Origin: an uncultured Acidovorax sp.
Lineage (GTDB): Bacteria > Pseudomonadota > Gammaproteobacteria > Burkholderiales > Burkholderiaceae_C
Assembly: GCA_913774955.1 (NCBI GenBank)
Contig: CAJYKV010000016.1
Span: forward strand, 1 to 64,000
Direction: 5' to 3'
Length of the DNA stretch: 64,000 nucleotides
The notes beneath the pieces are model-generated. The model was given only the letters and a program-made list of their open reading frames with translations, did no database searches and was not told where the DNA came from. Shown here piece by piece: positions 6,139 through 30,582 of the stretch. The position numbers were made by a program, and so were the translations under genes. Numbering within the stretch: the stretch's first letter is position 1; each line of letters starts with the position of its first letter.

Positions 6139-8804
<2,666 letters not shown>

Positions 8805-8869
8805 GGCCCCATGTCGCCGATCTGCCCGGCACCGGGGAAAGCAGGGAAAAGCCCACGCGGGGTGCGGCC

Positions 8870-10099
8870 TTGACCGCGGATTCGGACGGCAAGGTCCGCG
8901 TCTTCCACATCCAGCCGCAGGGCGCGCGCGAGCTGGACGCCATCCCGCAGCGCATGCCCGCGCAGGGCTTCGTGTGGATCGCCTGCACGCGCGCGACCTT
9001 CTCGGCACGGCTGGGTGCGCTGCAGTCGGCCCTGCAGGCGCTGGCGGGCCAGCAGCTGGTCGACCTGCACGTCTCCGACCTGCTGAATGCGCAGCTGCCG
9101 TCGCACTACGACTACACCTCGCAGTACGACGTGCTGGTGTTCCGCCGGCTGAGCGCCACCCGGTGCGACACCGGCGAGGTGCCCAGCCTGGCGAGCCTCT
9201 CCGGACTGGGCGCCAAGCGGGCCGCGCCGCCGGTGCTGCGCCGCATCGACACCAGCCCGGTCGGCTTCGCGGTGTTCGACCAGGTGCTGCTGTCGGTGCA
9301 TCCGGACGACTGCACCGTGCGCGATGCGTTCGCCGCGCGCCTGCTCACCGCCCACCAGCCCGCGCCGCCCCCGGCAGCGGTGCAGGAGCCGACGGCGGAG
9401 ATCGCCACGGCCGAGCATCCCCCGTCGGAAACGCTGGCGCGCGAGCAGCGCACCGCTCCGGCGCCGGGCACGCGCCTGCCGACCAGCCCGGCGGACCTGA
9501 TGCTGCGCGTGGTGAACCTGATCGTGGACAACTACCTGGACCTGCGGCGCGAACTCTCCCGCCAGCTCGACCACTGGCAGGCGGAACTGCTGCGGCCCCG
9601 CGGACGCTTCGCCAACTGGAGCGCGCTGCTGGACGCGCGGCTCACGCTGCACCAGCTCGACGAAATCTGCGAGGACCAGCGCGCCGCCGTGCAGGACTGG
9701 GTGGACACGCTGGAGACCTGGGCCCTGCCCGACGGCATGGCCGCGCTGCGCGAGCTGGAACTGCTCAAGGTGCGCAGCCGCGACGTGCTCGAGCACATCG
9801 AGCGCGTGGTGCACCATGTGCGCCGGCTGGAGCAGAGCACCGAGACGGCCGTGCAGATGCACTTCAGCGTGCAGAGCAACCGCACCAACGACATCATGCG
9901 CACGCTCACCGCCCTCACGGCCGTGTTCCTGCCACTCAACCTGATCGCGGGCATCTTCGGCATGAATTTCGAATTCATTCCCCTGGTCCACAAGCAGGAC
10001 GGCTTCTGGTGGGCCATGGCGACGATGACGGTGATCGCCATCGCGCTGGTGGCGCTGTTCTGGCGCAAGCGCTACCTGGCACGCACCGGGCAGCATTGA
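8870..10099 (+). CDS. corA: CorA-family divalent cation transporter
   Basis: Inner-membrane channel of the CorA/ZntB family. It has 409 residues: a long cytoplasmic N-terminal domain with a proline- and alanine-rich linker near 160-200, a long helical segment (about 240-345), and two C-terminal transmembrane helices. Between the helices lies the signature GMN (GIFGMNFEFIP). The ion is Mg or Zn; the sequence alone does not decide. The start is a TTG at 8870, since no ATG or GTG precedes the conserved sequence in this frame. Another ATG-led frame at 8811 stops at 8873. It lies 65 bp after hemB. Confidence 0.88.
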   Translation: MTADSDGKVRVFHIQPQGARELDAIPQRMPAQGFVWIACTRATFSARLGALQSALQALAGQQLVDLHVSDLLNAQLPSHYDYTSQYDVLVFRRLSATRCDTGEVPSLASLSGLGAKRAAPPVLRRIDTSPVGFAVFDQVLLSVHPDDCTVRDAFAARLLTAHQPAPPPAAVQEPTAEIATAEHPPSETLAREQRTAPAPGTRLPTSPADLMLRVVNLIVDNYLDLRRELSRQLDHWQAELLRPRGRFANWSALLDARLTLHQLDEICEDQRAAVQDWVDTLETWALPDGMAALRELELLKVRSRDVLEHIERVVHHVRRLEQSTETAVQMHFSVQSNRTNDIMRTLTALTAVFLPLNLIAGIFGMNFEFIPLVHKQDGFWWAMATMTVIAIALVALFWRKRYLARTGQH

Positions 10100-10250
10100 C
10101 GATGTCCGCCCGTCCCGGCTGACGGGCAGCAACGGAGACCGGCCGCCGCGCCGGGGCCTCTTCCCATCCGCTTGCCACCGCTCCGCCATGGCGGGGCTGG
10201 TCGCGGCCGTGCCCATCCCTCGTCGAACCCCTTGCGCCGCAATCAAAGAC

Positions 10251-10279
10251 TTGACATTATTTGTCTAGTCAATTAATGT
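10251..10279 (+). promoter_or_regulatory. Promoter with embedded palindromic operator ahead of the MarR gene
   Basis: A perfect -35 TTGACA (10251-10256) is followed after 17 bp by TAATGT (10274-10279). Between and across them, 10255-10278 is an imperfect palindrome centred on CTAG, with about 20 of 24 positions symmetric. A MarR dimer bound there would block polymerase. The predicted transcription start falls at or next to the ATG at 10286. Confidence 0.6.
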
Positions 10280-10285
10280 TGCGGC

Positions 10286-10774
10286 ATGAATTCTTCGACA
10301 GCTGCGTCCCCTCCCGCCCACGGCCTCATCGAACAGAGCATCGGCTACCAGATGCGCCGCATCGTCAGCCTGATGGGCAGCGAGGTAGATCGCCGCGTGG
10401 AGCCGCTGGGGCTGACCGACGCGCAGTGGCGCCCGCTGCTGAGGATCTTCCTGGCCTCCGGGCAGGAAAGCACCGTGGCCGCCCTCGCCCGGGTCTGCCA
10501 GCTCGACGCGGGCGGCATGACCCGGTTGCTGGACCGGCTGGAAGCCAAGGGCCTGTGCCGCCGCGAGCGTTCGCAGGAAGACCGCCGCGTGGTCCACCTC
10601 GCGCTGACCGAGGAAGGCCATGCCGCCGCTGCCCAATTGCCCGCGCTGCTGCTGGATCTGCAGAGCACGGCCCTGCACGGCTTCAGCGAGGCGGAAGCGG
10701 CGGCGTTCCGCGGCTACCTGGCCCGCATCTACGAGAACGTCACCACGCGGCTGACGCCGCCGGACGGCGCTTAA
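10286..10774 (+). CDS. MarR-family transcriptional repressor of the adjacent efflux operon
   Basis: Winged-helix dimeric repressor, 162 residues. It has the MarR core: an N-terminal dimerisation helix (IGYQMRRIVSLMG), the recognition region VAALARVCQLDAGGMTRLLDRLEAKGL, and the wing RRERSQEDRRVVHLALTEEG. It is first in a co-directional set with an outer-membrane channel, an EmrA-like adaptor and an EmrB-like pump, the layout of emrR-type loci. A palindrome in its own promoter suggests autoregulation. The ATG sits where transcription should begin, so the mRNA may be leaderless. Confidence 0.92.
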   Translation: MNSSTAASPPAHGLIEQSIGYQMRRIVSLMGSEVDRRVEPLGLTDAQWRPLLRIFLASGQESTVAALARVCQLDAGGMTRLLDRLEAKGLCRRERSQEDRRVVHLALTEEGHAAAAQLPALLLDLQSTALHGFSEAEAAAFRGYLARIYENVTTRLTPPDGA

Positions 10775-26421: not shown

Positions 26422-26766
26422 CCGCGCCACACCTCGCCGCCCGCCTGGGTGGAGTCGGCCAGCGAGGCGTGCAACCGCAGCACGCCATTGGGCCCGCGGC
26501 GCCGCTCAACGGCGGTGGCGCGCTGACCGGCAGCACGCTGAACCGCCACCTGACGGGGGAGCCCTGCACCATCGCGCAGCCCCTGTCCAGGGGCTTGGCG
26601 GGAATGTTCTGCATGCCGAAATGCAAGGGTCGGCGGGGACCGAAGAACACGGCAGTTGCGGCACAGTGCGGGGCGCGTGCCCGCGGGGATGGATGGGCAT
26701 GCGCCACAGGCACGCTCACGGTGGGCGGAGGGTGGCCCATGCCCCATGCGGGCAGAAAGAAGAACA
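26422..26766. other. Gene-free left flank of the accessory island (345 bp)
   Basis: No credible gene is seen on either strand. It contains the stray 49-bp copy of lipoprotein-gene sequence (26438-26486), a small GC hairpin near 26579-26595 without a T-tract, and the purine-rich ribosome-binding site of the next gene at its right end. Confidence 0.6.
26438..26486 (-). repeat. Left copy of a 49-bp direct repeat (fragment of a lipoprotein gene)
   Basis: Matches 28999-29047 at 47 of 49 bases. On the minus strand it still encodes VLRLHASLADSTQAG, against VLRLRASLADSTQAG in the intact gene, but the frame on both sides is unrelated. It is therefore a gene fragment, not a gene. Confidence 0.8.
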
Positions 26767-27429
26767 ATGTCGCTTGCCTATTGGTTCCGGGAGGGACCTG
26801 CGGAGCCCATTGAGGATGGGACGATTCAATACGGACCGGGCAAGGGGTTGCCCAAGCTCGTGTTCGAGGGAATGAACAACGCTCATACACTTGTCCAAAA
26901 GATCGCCACCGTCGATCCCGTTCGCAAAAAAATAATCCTGATCCAACCTGGAGAAAAAGCCTTGTATGTCTCGGGCCTGCGGGAAGCCGGAGTCGTCGGG
27001 TATCTCTATCTTTTCGCTCACGCAAATGCACAACGGCTTCAGGGAGCAGTAGACCTTGGCGAAATCACCCGCGTCATCCATCGCAGCGGTTTATGGCACA
27101 GGCAACCGATCCTCATTGACGCGTGCAATGCCGGTGCATCAGCCGACGGCGTCGCAAGCAATTTGGCGCAGGCATTGCAAACCTATGTCACAGCGCCCAC
27201 GACGCTCACCTGGAACCGCCCCATGGGCGGCGGCGCCGTCGGTCAAGGCACTTTCGAAAAATTGCCTGGCATCCTGAGCCGGCTTCCCATACCCGACTTT
27301 TTTCGACCGGGGCAATGGCGCACCTGGGGACCGGACGGCCACCCCATTGCCACCACGCGCACCTCGCCACGCGATGGTGGCGAACTCGTCAAGGGTCAGC
27401 TGGCTCACGAACTCACAAGGAAACAATGA
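26767..27429 (+). CDS. Small protein with a clan CD (caspase-like) His/Cys signature
   Basis: Not a family I can name. It has 220 residues, no signal peptide and no membrane helix. Two hydrophobic strands each end in a catalytic-type residue: YLYLFAHAN with H85 and ILIDACNAG with C120. That is the layout of clan CD cysteine peptidases (caspases, C80, CHAT), where a hydrophobic block precedes HG and a second precedes DACxG; here H85 is followed by Ala, not Gly. A conserved-looking VTAPTTLTW and a Gly-rich GGGAVGQGTF follow. The start ATG has GAAAGAAG 5 nt upstream. The stop overlaps the next start (ATGA), so it is coupled to the membrane protein downstream. Base composition is lower in G+C than its neighbours, which suggests transfer. 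Confidence 0.75.
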   Translation: MSLAYWFREGPAEPIEDGTIQYGPGKGLPKLVFEGMNNAHTLVQKIATVDPVRKKIILIQPGEKALYVSGLREAGVVGYLYLFAHANAQRLQGAVDLGEITRVIHRSGLWHRQPILIDACNAGASADGVASNLAQALQTYVTAPTTLTWNRPMGGGAVGQGTFEKLPGILSRLPIPDFFRPGQWRTWGPDGHPIATTRTSPRDGGELVKGQLAHELTRKQ

Positions 27430-28130
27430 TGCTGCGATGGTGGAAGCACGTGGGCTTTGGCTTTCGACTGCTTCTGGCTGCCTTTCTGCTGATCGGCATA
27501 TACACCGCATGGTGGTGGATCGACAGCGCTCGCACCTGCGATACCCAGGACGAATACAACCTTCGCGGCATCTGCCTCATGCGCATACAGGAGCGCGCGG
27601 AACAGGGCGACAACGCCGCGCAGTGGAGCTACGGCGCCTACCTCGAAACGGAACGCAGGGAGTCGGAAGCACGCCAATGGCAGTTGCGCGCCATGCACGG
27701 CGCGCAGGTGGGATTAGATCTGCGCAATGAGATGAAAGTCTTTTGCGACCGCATTCCCGGCTTCGAGGCGCGCACCGTGGAGGCCATCATGCGGCGCGTG
27801 GTCACGAGTAGCCCCGACGCCCATCTTCGTCTGCTGCAGCTCTACATCCATCCCCGCTGCGGTGCTTTCGACCTCGACAAGGCCAGTGCGCAGATACCCT
27901 TGCTGACACAGTGTGCTCACTTTGCCTTGGGGGACTATCTTGAACGGGCCAAAGACAAGCATTACCGCGTCTCCCCCGCCACCCGTGCGGCCATACGTTC
28001 GAATATGAAAATCTGCGAACAGGAATTGGAAAACCCACCCCCACCAGGGTCTACGGTCCGCGAGTTCATGCCCGTTTGGCGACAAGATCTAGACACGCTG
28101 GCAAGAGGCTTGGCCGAACTGGAGCAATAG
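27426..28130 (+). CDS. Membrane-anchored six-Cys Sel1-like protein, first of two tandem paralogues
   Basis: Unnamed protein of 234 residues. An N-terminal basic stretch and one transmembrane helix (about 11-32, ending YTAWWWIDSA) place the rest in the periplasm by the positive-inside rule. The outside part has six cysteines, all conserved in the next gene, compatible with three disulfides. A Sel1-like repeat is visible: AEQGDNAAQWSYGAYLE followed by ARQWQLRAMHG. The start is an ATGA overlap with the preceding caspase-like gene; a second ATG follows at once at 27429. I infer a partner, inhibitor or immunity protein for the upstream product. Confidence 0.78.
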   Translation: MMLRWWKHVGFGFRLLLAAFLLIGIYTAWWWIDSARTCDTQDEYNLRGICLMRIQERAEQGDNAAQWSYGAYLETERRESEARQWQLRAMHGAQVGLDLRNEMKVFCDRIPGFEARTVEAIMRRVVTSSPDAHLRLLQLYIHPRCGAFDLDKASAQIPLLTQCAHFALGDYLERAKDKHYRVSPATRAAIRSNMKICEQELENPPPPGSTVREFMPVWRQDLDTLARGLAELEQ

Positions 28131-28173
28131 ACTACCTGTCAATCAATGCTGAGACTGAACATGGCGAGAACAC

Positions 28174-28854
28174 ATGGATCGTGCATTGAGATGGCTCGCG
28201 ATTTCCTCTGTTCTGATCGGGACCTACACTGCATGGTGGTGGATCGACAGCACGCACACCTGCGCTACCCAAGACGAATACAACCTTCGCGGCATCTGCC
28301 TCCTGCAGATACAGGAGCGCGCTGAAAAGGGCGACAACGCCGCGCAATGGACCTATGGCAGTTATCTCGAAACGGAACGGCGGGAGGCAGAAGCTCGGGC
28401 ATGGCAACTCCGGGCTATGCACGGCGCCCGGATAGGACTGGGTCTGCGGGGCGAAACGCTCGCTTTTTGCGACCGCTTCCCCGGCTTCGAGGGCCGCACC
28501 GTTGAGGCCCTCATGCTGCGCGTAGCGCCGACCAGCCCCGATGCGCATCTGCGGCTACTGCAACTTTATACCCACCCTCGCTGCGGCGCCTTCGACCTCG
28601 ATAAGGCCAGTGCGCAGCTTCCCCTGCTGACGCAATGCGCGCATCTGACGCTCGAAGACTATCTGGAGCGTGCTGCAAGTGCCGATTACCGCATCCCGGC
28701 GGACACCCGAACGGTCATCCGCGCCAACCTGGCGCTCTGCGAGCAGGAACTGGCGGGGCATGCACCACCGGACACCACCGTGCAGGAATTCATGCCTGTC
28801 CGCCGCAAGGACGTGGAAGCACTGCGACGTCGCCTCGAGGCGGCGTCGCGCTGA
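28174..28854 (+). CDS. Membrane-anchored six-Cys Sel1-like protein, second tandem paralogue
   Basis: Paralogue of the preceding gene, 226 residues, similar along its whole length (for example ATQDEYNLRGICLLQIQERA against DTQDEYNLRGICLMRIQERA). It has the same helix, the same six Cys and the same Sel1-like AEKGDNAAQWTYGSYLE. Differences cluster in the N-terminal cytoplasmic tail and in the middle of the ectodomain. It begins 43 bp after its twin and ends 1 bp before the stop of a convergent lipoprotein gene. Tandem duplication and divergence are typical of immunity genes but are not proof. Confidence 0.78.
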   Translation: MDRALRWLAISSVLIGTYTAWWWIDSTHTCATQDEYNLRGICLLQIQERAEKGDNAAQWTYGSYLETERREAEARAWQLRAMHGARIGLGLRGETLAFCDRFPGFEGRTVEALMLRVAPTSPDAHLRLLQLYTHPRCGAFDLDKASAQLPLLTQCAHLTLEDYLERAASADYRIPADTRTVIRANLALCEQELAGHAPPDTTVQEFMPVRRKDVEALRRRLEAASR

Positions 28855-28855
28855 T

Positions 28856-29524
28856 TCAACGCCCCATCCGCTCCACCCACTGCGCCACGTCCTGCGCCGC
28901 CTGGGCCGCTGCCTCGGCCATGGCGAGCGTGCCGCCGCGCGCGTCCGCCGTGGGCGCCGGCCGCTGGACGACGAAGACGCGCTGGGCCATGAGCTTTTCG
29001 CCCGCCTGGGTGGAGTCGGCCAGCGAGGCGCGCAGCCGCAGCACGCCGGTGCTGGCCTTGGGCGACTGGAAGACCTGGCTGAATTCCTCGATCTCCACGC
29101 GCAGCACCACCGGCGGCTTGCCGGTGTCGACGAGCTGCGACGCGCCCTCGTCGCCCATGAGCACGGCGCGGCGCAGGCCGAGCTGGTCGCGCAGGGCCTG
29201 CTGCACGAGCTGCGCGGGAGGCTGGCTCCAGCGCGCCTGGCCGTAGGGACGCAGGTGGCGCGGGTCGTCGTAGGCCAGGCGGTACAGCACGGCGGTGCTG
29301 CCCTCGACCGGCCCCGCGACGGCCACTTCCGGCAGCGCGATGGGCGGCAGCTGCGCACCGCGATCGGTGGGCGCGCCCGCCAGCGGGCCGGGGCCGAAGT
29401 CGTACACGTCGGCCCGGGCCGGCGGTGCGGGCAGGGCGGAGCAGCCCGCCATGAGCGCGGCGGCCGCGAGGGCCGCGGCGGCCCGGAGGCCGCGGGCCCG
29501 GGGGGTGACTGCGGGGTGTGCCAT
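28856..29524 (-). CDS. ABC-type transport auxiliary lipoprotein (PqiC/DUF330-like)
   Basis: Outer-membrane lipoprotein partner of an MCE lipid transporter. It has 222 residues with the lipobox ALMAGC near residue 28. The body contains the family pattern of strands around RLAYDDPRHLRPYGQARWSQ and VVLRVEIEEFSQVF. The start at 29524 has GAGGA about 6 nt upstream; an earlier in-frame ATG at 29545 lacks one. It is last in a four-gene minus-strand operon (permease, ATPase, MlaD-like, lipoprotein). A 49-bp piece of this gene is duplicated across the neighbouring island. Confidence 0.88.
   Translation of the reverse strand: MAHPAVTPRARGLRAAAALAAAALMAGCSALPAPPARADVYDFGPGPLAGAPTDRGAQLPPIALPEVAVAGPVEGSTAVLYRLAYDDPRHLRPYGQARWSQPPAQLVQQALRDQLGLRRAVLMGDEGASQLVDTGKPPVVLRVEIEEFSQVFQSPKASTGVLRLRASLADSTQAGEKLMAQRVFVVQRPAPTADARGGTLAMAEAAAQAAQDVAQWVERMGR
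28999..29047 (-). repeat. Right copy of the 49-bp direct repeat (inside the lipoprotein gene)
   Basis: Original-looking copy, in frame within the lipoprotein gene (VLRLRASLADSTQAG). It is 47/49 identical to 26438-26486, in the same orientation, with about 2.5 kb between them enclosing the island. Confidence 0.8.
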
Positions 29525-29601
29525 GTCGTTCCTCGTGATGTCCATGGATGCGGTGGAAGGTCCTGCGGAGGTGCTCGCGCGGCAGCGGGACGGCGGACGC
29601 C

Positions 29602-30582
29602 TCACGGCGCCGCGGCCGCCGGCGCCTCGAATCCGGGCTCGCCCGGGCCGCCCGAGGCACGGCCGGGACCGTAGATGAGCGACTGCGGGTTGTCGCTGAG
29701 GTTGCTGGCGGCGCGGCCCAGGCGTCGCACGGCGCGCGAGGTCTCGTCCGCCGCATGGTTCAGGCGCGGCAGGGTCACGCGGCCGAAGCGGTCGGCAGCC
29801 AGCGACAGCGATTCCGAACTGTCGGCGATCTTGTCGATCGGGCCGCCTTCGACGCTGAGCTTGCGCACGGCGATCTTGACCTCGTTGGCGGCGTCGCCGG
29901 CGTTGGTGCCGGCCTGCCGCAGGGCCTTGAGCGTTTCGCGCGCATCGCTCGCCAGGGCAGGAACGGAAGCCAGCGCGGGATCGAGGCGCTGCTCCACGGT
30001 GGCGTCGAGCCGCTTCATGAGCGTGTTGGCGCTGCCTGCGGCCTGCGCGAGGTTGTCCAGCGCCAGGCTGACGCGCTTCTGGTTCTCGTCGCCCAGCAGG
30101 TCGTTGATGCGGTCGGTGGCCTGCTGCACCTGCGCGAGGATGGCGGGGCCCTGCTCCGCGAGCTGGCTGAACGGAGAGCTCTTGAGCGGCAGGCGCGGCA
30201 GGCCGCTGGAGCCGCGCGGCACCTGCGGCTGCGGGTCCGTGCCGTCGTCGAGCAGCACGTGGGCCAGGCCCGTGACGCCCTGGTAGCCCAGCACGGCGAA
30301 GGTGGCCGGGGTGACCGGTGCCTGGTCGTTCACGGCGATGCGGATCAGGACGTTGCCGGGCACGTCGGGGTCGAAGCCGATGCGCGTGACCTTGCCCACC
30401 GCCACGCCCTTGTAGCGCACGGCCGCCTGCGGCTGCAGGCCGCCGACGCTCTCGCGCGTGGAGAGCTCATAGAGCTGGTAGCTCGCCCGGTCGCGCGTGA
30501 GCCACAGGCCCAGGCCGGCGAGCAGCGCCGCCACCACCACCACGAAGATGCCCGCGGCGAGGGCATGGGACTTGTTTTCCAT
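29602..30582 (-). CDS. MlaD/MCE-family lipid transport protein
   Basis: Periplasmic substrate-binding protein of an MCE transporter, 326 residues. It has an N-terminal transmembrane anchor at about 9-28, then one MCE domain (YQLYELSTRESVGGLQPQAAVRYKG..., kept short here: SVGGLQPQAAVRYKGVAVGK), then a long helical region (about 160-300) that would form a barrel or tunnel as an oligomer. One MCE domain fits the MlaD-like rather than the PqiB/LetB class. The start overlaps the ATPase stop (TGATG). Confidence 0.92.
   Translation of the reverse strand: MENKSHALAAGIFVVVVAALLAGLGLWLTRDRASYQLYELSTRESVGGLQPQAAVRYKGVAVGKVTRIGFDPDVPGNVLIRIAVNDQAPVTPATFAVLGYQGVTGLAHVLLDDGTDPQPQVPRGSSGLPRLPLKSSPFSQLAEQGPAILAQVQQATDRINDLLGDENQKRVSLALDNLAQAAGSANTLMKRLDATVEQRLDPALASVPALASDARETLKALRQAGTNAGDAANEVKIAVRKLSVEGGPIDKIADSSESLSLAADRFGRVTLPRLNHAADETSRAVRRLGRAASNLSDNPQSLIYGPGRASGGPGEPGFEAPAAAAP

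Follow-up and report, generated by a model that had tools for sequence, protein, structure and literature searches.

The window analysed here, 64,000 nucleotides of contig CAJYKV010000016.1 from an uncultured Acidovorax sp., holds an island (26767..28854) that is probably, with a rough probability of three in four, an antibacterial effector-immunity cassette, consisting of a predicted clan-CD protease that would act in the periplasm as probable cargo of a type VI secretion system (T6SS), and of anchored Sel1/TPR-like immunity proteins. The first gene, referred to as the caspase-like gene (26767..27429, forward strand, 220 amino acids), encodes the predicted cysteine-protease toxin. It is followed on the same strand by two genes for proteins with six cysteines: six-Cys gene 1 (27426..28130, 234 amino acids), whose product has an N-terminal membrane helix and a predicted periplasmic alpha-solenoid, and its paralogue, six-Cys gene 2 (28174..28854, 226 amino acids), both predicted to confer immunity.

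According to the proposed mechanism, the caspase-like protein would be a cysteine protease with a predicted His85/Cys120 dyad that enters competing cells, most likely as free-standing T6SS cargo, and cuts a target in the rival's periplasm. The six-Cys proteins would be Sel1/TPR-like solenoids, stabilised by disulfides and anchored in the inner membrane on its periplasmic side, and would protect the cell and its kin by binding and inhibiting the protease; their tandem copies would broaden the protection. This effector-immunity reading is supported by comparison, and the protease activity, the toxicity, its neutralisation, the periplasmic site and the delivery by the T6SS are what we infer.

Linkage, selection and loss within the genus

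A scan of genome_contigs, which covers 84,980 species and reaches close relatives only, found the caspase-like gene at 11 loci, every one labelled Paracidovorax or Acidovorax. The genus of the window carries it in 11 of 17 genomes as 20 full-length copies (nine genomes have two copies and two have one) and, with the addition of locus L011 from Acidovorax sp. Leaf78, where the match starts at residue 11, the distinct loci amount to 21. Directly downstream of the caspase-like gene, every one of the 21 has full-length six-Cys genes, from one to six in tandem. Loci L004 and L006 hold 4 and 6 full-length partner copies behind a single caspase-like gene, and at some of the 21 loci surplus six-Cys copies are broken or truncated. 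The sequence-only reading had noted that the first two genes overlap by ATGA and had proposed listing the neighbours of first-gene homologues as a test for an effector. The overlap lies at 27426-27429, where the start of six-Cys gene 1 overlaps the stop of the caspase-like gene, and is found at 19 of the 21 loci, the exceptions being L008 and L011. As for the neighbours, the expected six-Cys linkage holds at 20 of 20 genus loci and at L011, but linkage to vgrG or PAAR was not found.

The start of the stand-alone caspase-like gene is its own and is conserved, and the gene evolves under purifying selection, with a median pairwise dN/dS of 0.129 (173 of 210 pairs used, 37 being saturated). The corresponding median for the six-Cys partners is 0.234 (628 of 666 pairs used, 38 being saturated).

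The patterns of loss are asymmetric. At a second locus in the window's own genome, a six-Cys gene runs without stops over the match, and the intact caspase-like partner is gone; what stands upstream is limited to two short stretches that weakly match the two ends of the caspase-like protein, with nothing of the catalytic core. In genome G007 a 15-residue caspase-like start stands ahead of a six-Cys gene that a single in-frame stop interrupts; G004 holds six-Cys fragments only and G001 fragments of both genes. No full-length caspase-like gene of the genus is without a partner. Since the partner survives without the caspase-like gene, and never the reverse within the genus, it behaves as predicted for an antidote.

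The six-Cys partner proteins

The two paralogues of the window are 67% identical and have exactly six cysteines each, which are invariant across 37 six-Cys sequences, a pattern that fits three disulfides in the periplasm. The structure model of the six-Cys gene 1 product (pLDDT 90.5) consists of a single membrane helix followed by an alpha-solenoid, and the solenoid would lie outside the inner membrane because positively charged residues precede the helix. The four best Foldseek rows for this model were Sel1 proteins at E values of 0.04-0.19, none of them significant, VIA gave mixed helical-repeat rows, and the protein has no Pfam match. A comparable arrangement is that of PldB from Pseudomonas aeruginosa, a phospholipase toxin with tandem Sel1-like periplasmic immunity paralogues (the literature matches listed did not confirm it).

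Predicted catalytic pair and fold of the caspase-like protein

The predicted catalytic residues, His85 (codon 27019-27021, forward strand) and Cys120 (codon 27124-27126, forward strand), are invariant in 21 close sequences (alignment A1) and in the 12 divergent sequences of alignment A4, from which L008, L042 and L046, all present in alignment A3, are omitted; L046 is without the cysteine in A3. The best VIA structural matches of the protein are autoprocessing proteases of the Peptidase_C80 type. Family searches gave little: Pfam assigned no family at E<=10 to any of the three window proteins, and for the caspase-like protein there was no match to Peptidase_C80 over the curated cut-off. NCBIfam returned one chance match for the three (E 0.09), phmmer against the PDB reached an E value of 0.56 at best, with legumains on top, and PDB profile searches yielded no convincing match.

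Homologous tips of Rhs and CdiA-like proteins

More remote relatives were sought in samples of 399, 399, 398 and 360 genomes from the family, order, phylum and class, respectively, which partly overlap. At the cut-offs of each sample, matches were found in 9, 6, 4 and 4 genomes, with the window's own genome counted. Because so few sampled genomes matched, the caspase-like family is rare or divergent.

Five of the remote domains form the C-terminal ends of Rhs proteins: L045, which has the TIGR03696 core; L058, L059 and L060, which have RHS repeats; and L063 from Escherichia coli, which matches Pfam RHS. A sixth, L057, is the end of a 3809-amino-acid frame resembling a two-partner-secretion, CdiA-like protein (a label given by eye). 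L060, with an E value of 0.0035, was retained because an Rhs core precedes it and the dyad is conserved in it. A profile made only from close homologues scored eight remote domains, L060 at an E value of 0.033 and the other seven at 1.1e-5 or lower; the eight had been preselected by related searches, and the scoring is a check on them rather than an estimate of frequency. The best E value among 2000 shuffles was 0.44. Comparison of the caspase-like domain with the remote tips by hhalign gave 99.3% (E 3e-20), and two mismatched controls 0.07% and 0.25%. Judged by these profiles, the window domain is homologous to all six C-terminal tips, the five on Rhs proteins and the CdiA-like one. Two remote relatives also match Peptidase_C80 weakly, below threshold, and one matched DUF4347 weakly.

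The tips resemble the window also in what follows them. At all six, the next open reading frame on the same strand overlaps the tip or begins within 12 nt of it (L057 and L060 having uncertain TTG start codons), and at five of the six its product is a small protein whose N-terminus has a membrane stretch, a lipobox or a signal peptide (hydropathy was computed, the motifs were judged by eye). The exception is the frame after L057, which is Zn-ribbon-like. Two of the tip partners, that of L058 and YibG of E. coli, have sub-threshold Sel1 matches. Against the six-Cys profile YibG scored an E value of 0.0013 and the partner of L045 one of 0.065, with no match in the other five partner candidates tested, two of them from L057, and a comparison of partners profile against profile was weak (7.3%, E 0.005). 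For these reasons the partners appear to share type and location more surely than sequence family. The suggestion in the sequence-only reading that the island serves interbacterial competition gains support from the six-Cys linkage together with these homologues in toxin position and their small exported or anchored neighbours.

The same reading had offered defence-type signalling as an alternative, for which we found no support. Clan-CD peptidases paired with TPR-like partners do occur in defence, in CHAT/TPR systems, a point in favour of an anti-phage or abortive-infection protease system. However, none of the three window proteins, the only ones searched in this way, matched PADLOC at E<=10, and the partners are membrane-anchored. 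In addition, a pattern-limited scan of viral_contigs gave 48 pattern matches and no confirmed relative, and the relatives that are known sit on Rhs and CdiA-like proteins. A defence role is, on this evidence, highly improbable.

Several other matches were set aside. L061 and L062 (E 0.006-0.007) were dropped, as their frames look non-coding, and the matches of the A4 profile to L069-L072 were not counted, as they resemble DUF4347-type surface proteins (by eye). L069 belongs to the window's own genome, where a 1048-amino-acid frame (7264-10410, forward strand) has a DUF4347-like region (by eye) and a weak match to the caspase profile (E 6e-5). Genome G687, from the same order, encodes a giant frame of 4198 amino acids (L056, 1-9290, reverse strand) with at least two internal caspase-like domains (i-E 3e-8 and 0.005), which was not counted as Rhs or CdiA-like. 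L044 is a stand-alone caspase-like gene with no evident partner among the open reading frames listed there.

The orphan Rhs tip and yibG of E. coli

The E. coli relative came from a tblastn search of plasmids, in which a single E. coli record matched at a marginal E value of 0.006; the profile of close homologues scores the same tip at 6.5e-11. That record (NZ_OL790696.1) is a chromosome-sized sequence of 4.8 Mb filed as a plasmid in PLSDB. Of 5426 complete E. coli genomes, 3501 match the tip plus yibG, 3422 of them with coverage of at least 80%. K-12 MG1655 and AB66 share the order rhsA-yibA, orphan tip, yibG, another Rhs fragment and an Imm57 gene, and at the K-12 rhsA locus (L073, 5554-8128) two orphan Rhs pieces are stacked with yibG and the Imm57 gene. 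The Sel1-type protein may be the true partner at this locus, since yibG lies between the tip and Imm57, nearer to the tip.

Like the window, the E. coli locus combines a homologous caspase-like domain bearing the His/Cys pair with a next gene for a Sel1-like protein, which has a signal peptide (by eye) and the weak match to the six-Cys profile. Contrary to the window gene, the tip follows Rhs core sequence and is annotated as incomplete in both records, and YibG has two cysteines and a signal peptide where the six-Cys partners have six and an anchor. RefSeq uses the name DUF8616 for the tip in 3 of 15 records among the matches listed, and names the yibG product only as a Sel1 repeat protein. 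Two Campylobacter phage records (H23 and H24) hold a 98.8% copy of the tip, perhaps through contamination, and a Rhodococcus plasmid matches it at 31% (E 4e-6).

Proposed delivery and site of action

VipB, the T6SS sheath gene, is present in all 11 genomes of the genus that carry the cassette and in 2 of 6 non-carriers (Fisher p 0.006, with shared ancestry uncontrolled). Among more distant carriers it was found in 7 of 11, those without it being G055, G253, G324 and G1001. Searches of the window for VgrG (TIGR03361) and PAAR (PF05488) gave no match and no Rhs core was found in it, the tblastn matches of three Rhs queries falling only on the caspase-like gene, in agreement with the earlier statement that the window has no such gene and that delivery is unproven. 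The nearest VgrG gene on the same contig (87272-88870) is about 58 kb from the island; at the other 19 genus loci it is farther than 58 kb or on other contigs, and PAAR is absent from the window's contig. Delivery by the T6SS is plausible, and is placed no higher, because VipB is present in all carriers of the genus but linkage to vgrG or PAAR is lacking.

Three observations weigh against the proposed cassette or its delivery. None of the 20 genus loci has a VgrG or PAAR match within 58 kb on the same contig, as far as contig ends allow. Foldseek alone put nitrilases first for the caspase-like protein. Finally, the caspase-like gene occurs in three genomes of another genus (L041, L042 and L043) that have no six-Cys match, either nearby or genome-wide, so that the pattern predicted for an antidote breaks down outside the genus of the window. 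Their matches begin at profile positions 18 to 28, and in L041 and L043 the gene lies between gluQ-like and trmB-like genes (by eye). Either these partnerless genes are inert, or the protein is harmful only on arrival from outside.

Such partnerless genes speak for a reading in which the island encodes no weapon, but a peptidase and its dedicated inhibitors working in the cell envelope, in housekeeping or stress processing, and caspase-like domains are described as often processing proteins in the available text of PMC3482391. This explanation is nevertheless very unlikely in view of the patchy presence of the gene, often at two loci per genome, its tandem partners, the survival of the partner after the peptidase is lost, and the fusion of the same domain to Rhs and CdiA-type proteins.

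It is also conceivable, though unlikely, that the same toxin-immunity pair works differently, either through cytoplasmic action, with the anchored partner intercepting the toxin on entry, or by a route other than the T6SS, such as an orphan C-terminal cassette recombining onto an Rhs or CdiA carrier. The orphan tip with yibG in E. coli, the four distant carriers without VipB and the missing vgrG linkage are compatible with this. Nevertheless, the stand-alone gene keeps its own start under purifying selection, and the periplasmic site fits better because the partners, both the six-Cys proteins and those at five of six tips, begin with a membrane stretch, a lipobox or a signal peptide (motifs by eye).

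Genomic context of the island

The lower G+C that had been noted for the island stands: 60.3%, against a mean of 70.65% (standard deviation 2.65, minimum 61.8%) over 1156 equal-sized stretches of the window outside the island, taken in 50-nt steps. The bracketing repeats fared less well. A 49-nt direct repeat exists, with copies 96% identical (26438..26486 and 28999..29047), but both lie outside the island, and an origin as a mobile-element end was rejected because the right copy lies inside the neighbouring gene and the left one is a stray fragment of that gene. The cassette-free relatives G007 and G004 have the 49 nt once, within that gene.

This right neighbour (28856..29605, reverse strand) encodes a lipoprotein-like product beside an MCE-type ABC transporter (both named by eye) and marks the usual site of the cassette. 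Every one of the 17 genomes of the genus has a match to it, and in 9 of 11 carriers no more than about 100 nt separate its start from the last six-Cys gene. G002 has a fragment adjacent to the cassette and the full gene about 2 kb away, and in G003 the site is divided over two contigs. G007 and G004 have the same site filled by a different region of lower G+C, 61-62% (L079, about 816-2736; L080, about 807-2605), which is why the site may be a cassette hotspot.

Relation to known systems and significance

Tox-Caspase domains were predicted by Zhang et al. (2012), whose available text (PMC3482391) treats them mostly as processing peptidases and partly as toxins and names Imm36 and Imm57 as their partners. 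The window gene shares with them a caspase-like fold with conserved His and Cys, an adjacent candidate immunity gene, and the toxin role predicted there for some versions. It stands alone and is not the C-terminal-most domain of a delivered toxin; that position is held by its relatives L045, L057, L058, L059, L060 and L063. The window differs further in its membrane-anchored Sel1/TPR-like partner, which is neither Imm36 nor Imm57; in at least three of the four mentions of Sel1 in that paper, it is a repeat inside toxin proteins. Caspase-like toxins had therefore already been predicted in 2012, and, as far as that text goes, what is new is the type of partner; the relative in E. coli is unexpected.

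The autoprocessing Peptidase_C80 domains of large toxins are structurally alike, but the window protein, besides lacking their Pfam match, is not an internal processing domain and is paired with partner genes. Another cysteine-protease antibacterial toxin with an adjacent immunity gene is Cpe1-Cpi1, tied to delivery by T6SS and by contact-dependent inhibition (CDI); contrary to the window protein, Cpe1 is papain-like and, in the available text of Song et al. (2025), cuts GyrB and ParE (PMC12136450). No paper among the open-licence matches listed could be recognised by title or abstract as a test of an antibacterial toxin of the caspase-like kind, and none of those listed, which for yibG were 25 of 342 with three that contain the name, as giving yibG a role.

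Whether there is a broad family of periplasm-killing caspase-like protease toxins, with envelope-anchored Sel1/TPR-like immunity as the general partner, spanning the Paracidovorax cassettes, the Rhs and CdiA-like tips and the yibG locus of E. coli, is in our judgement evenly balanced. The cassette itself offers a compact pair that can be tested and that comes with its own immunity array, and it suggests a role for yibG as the antidote to the neighbouring Rhs tip. If true, a caspase-fold protease and a helical-repeat inhibitor would join the periplasmic arms race.
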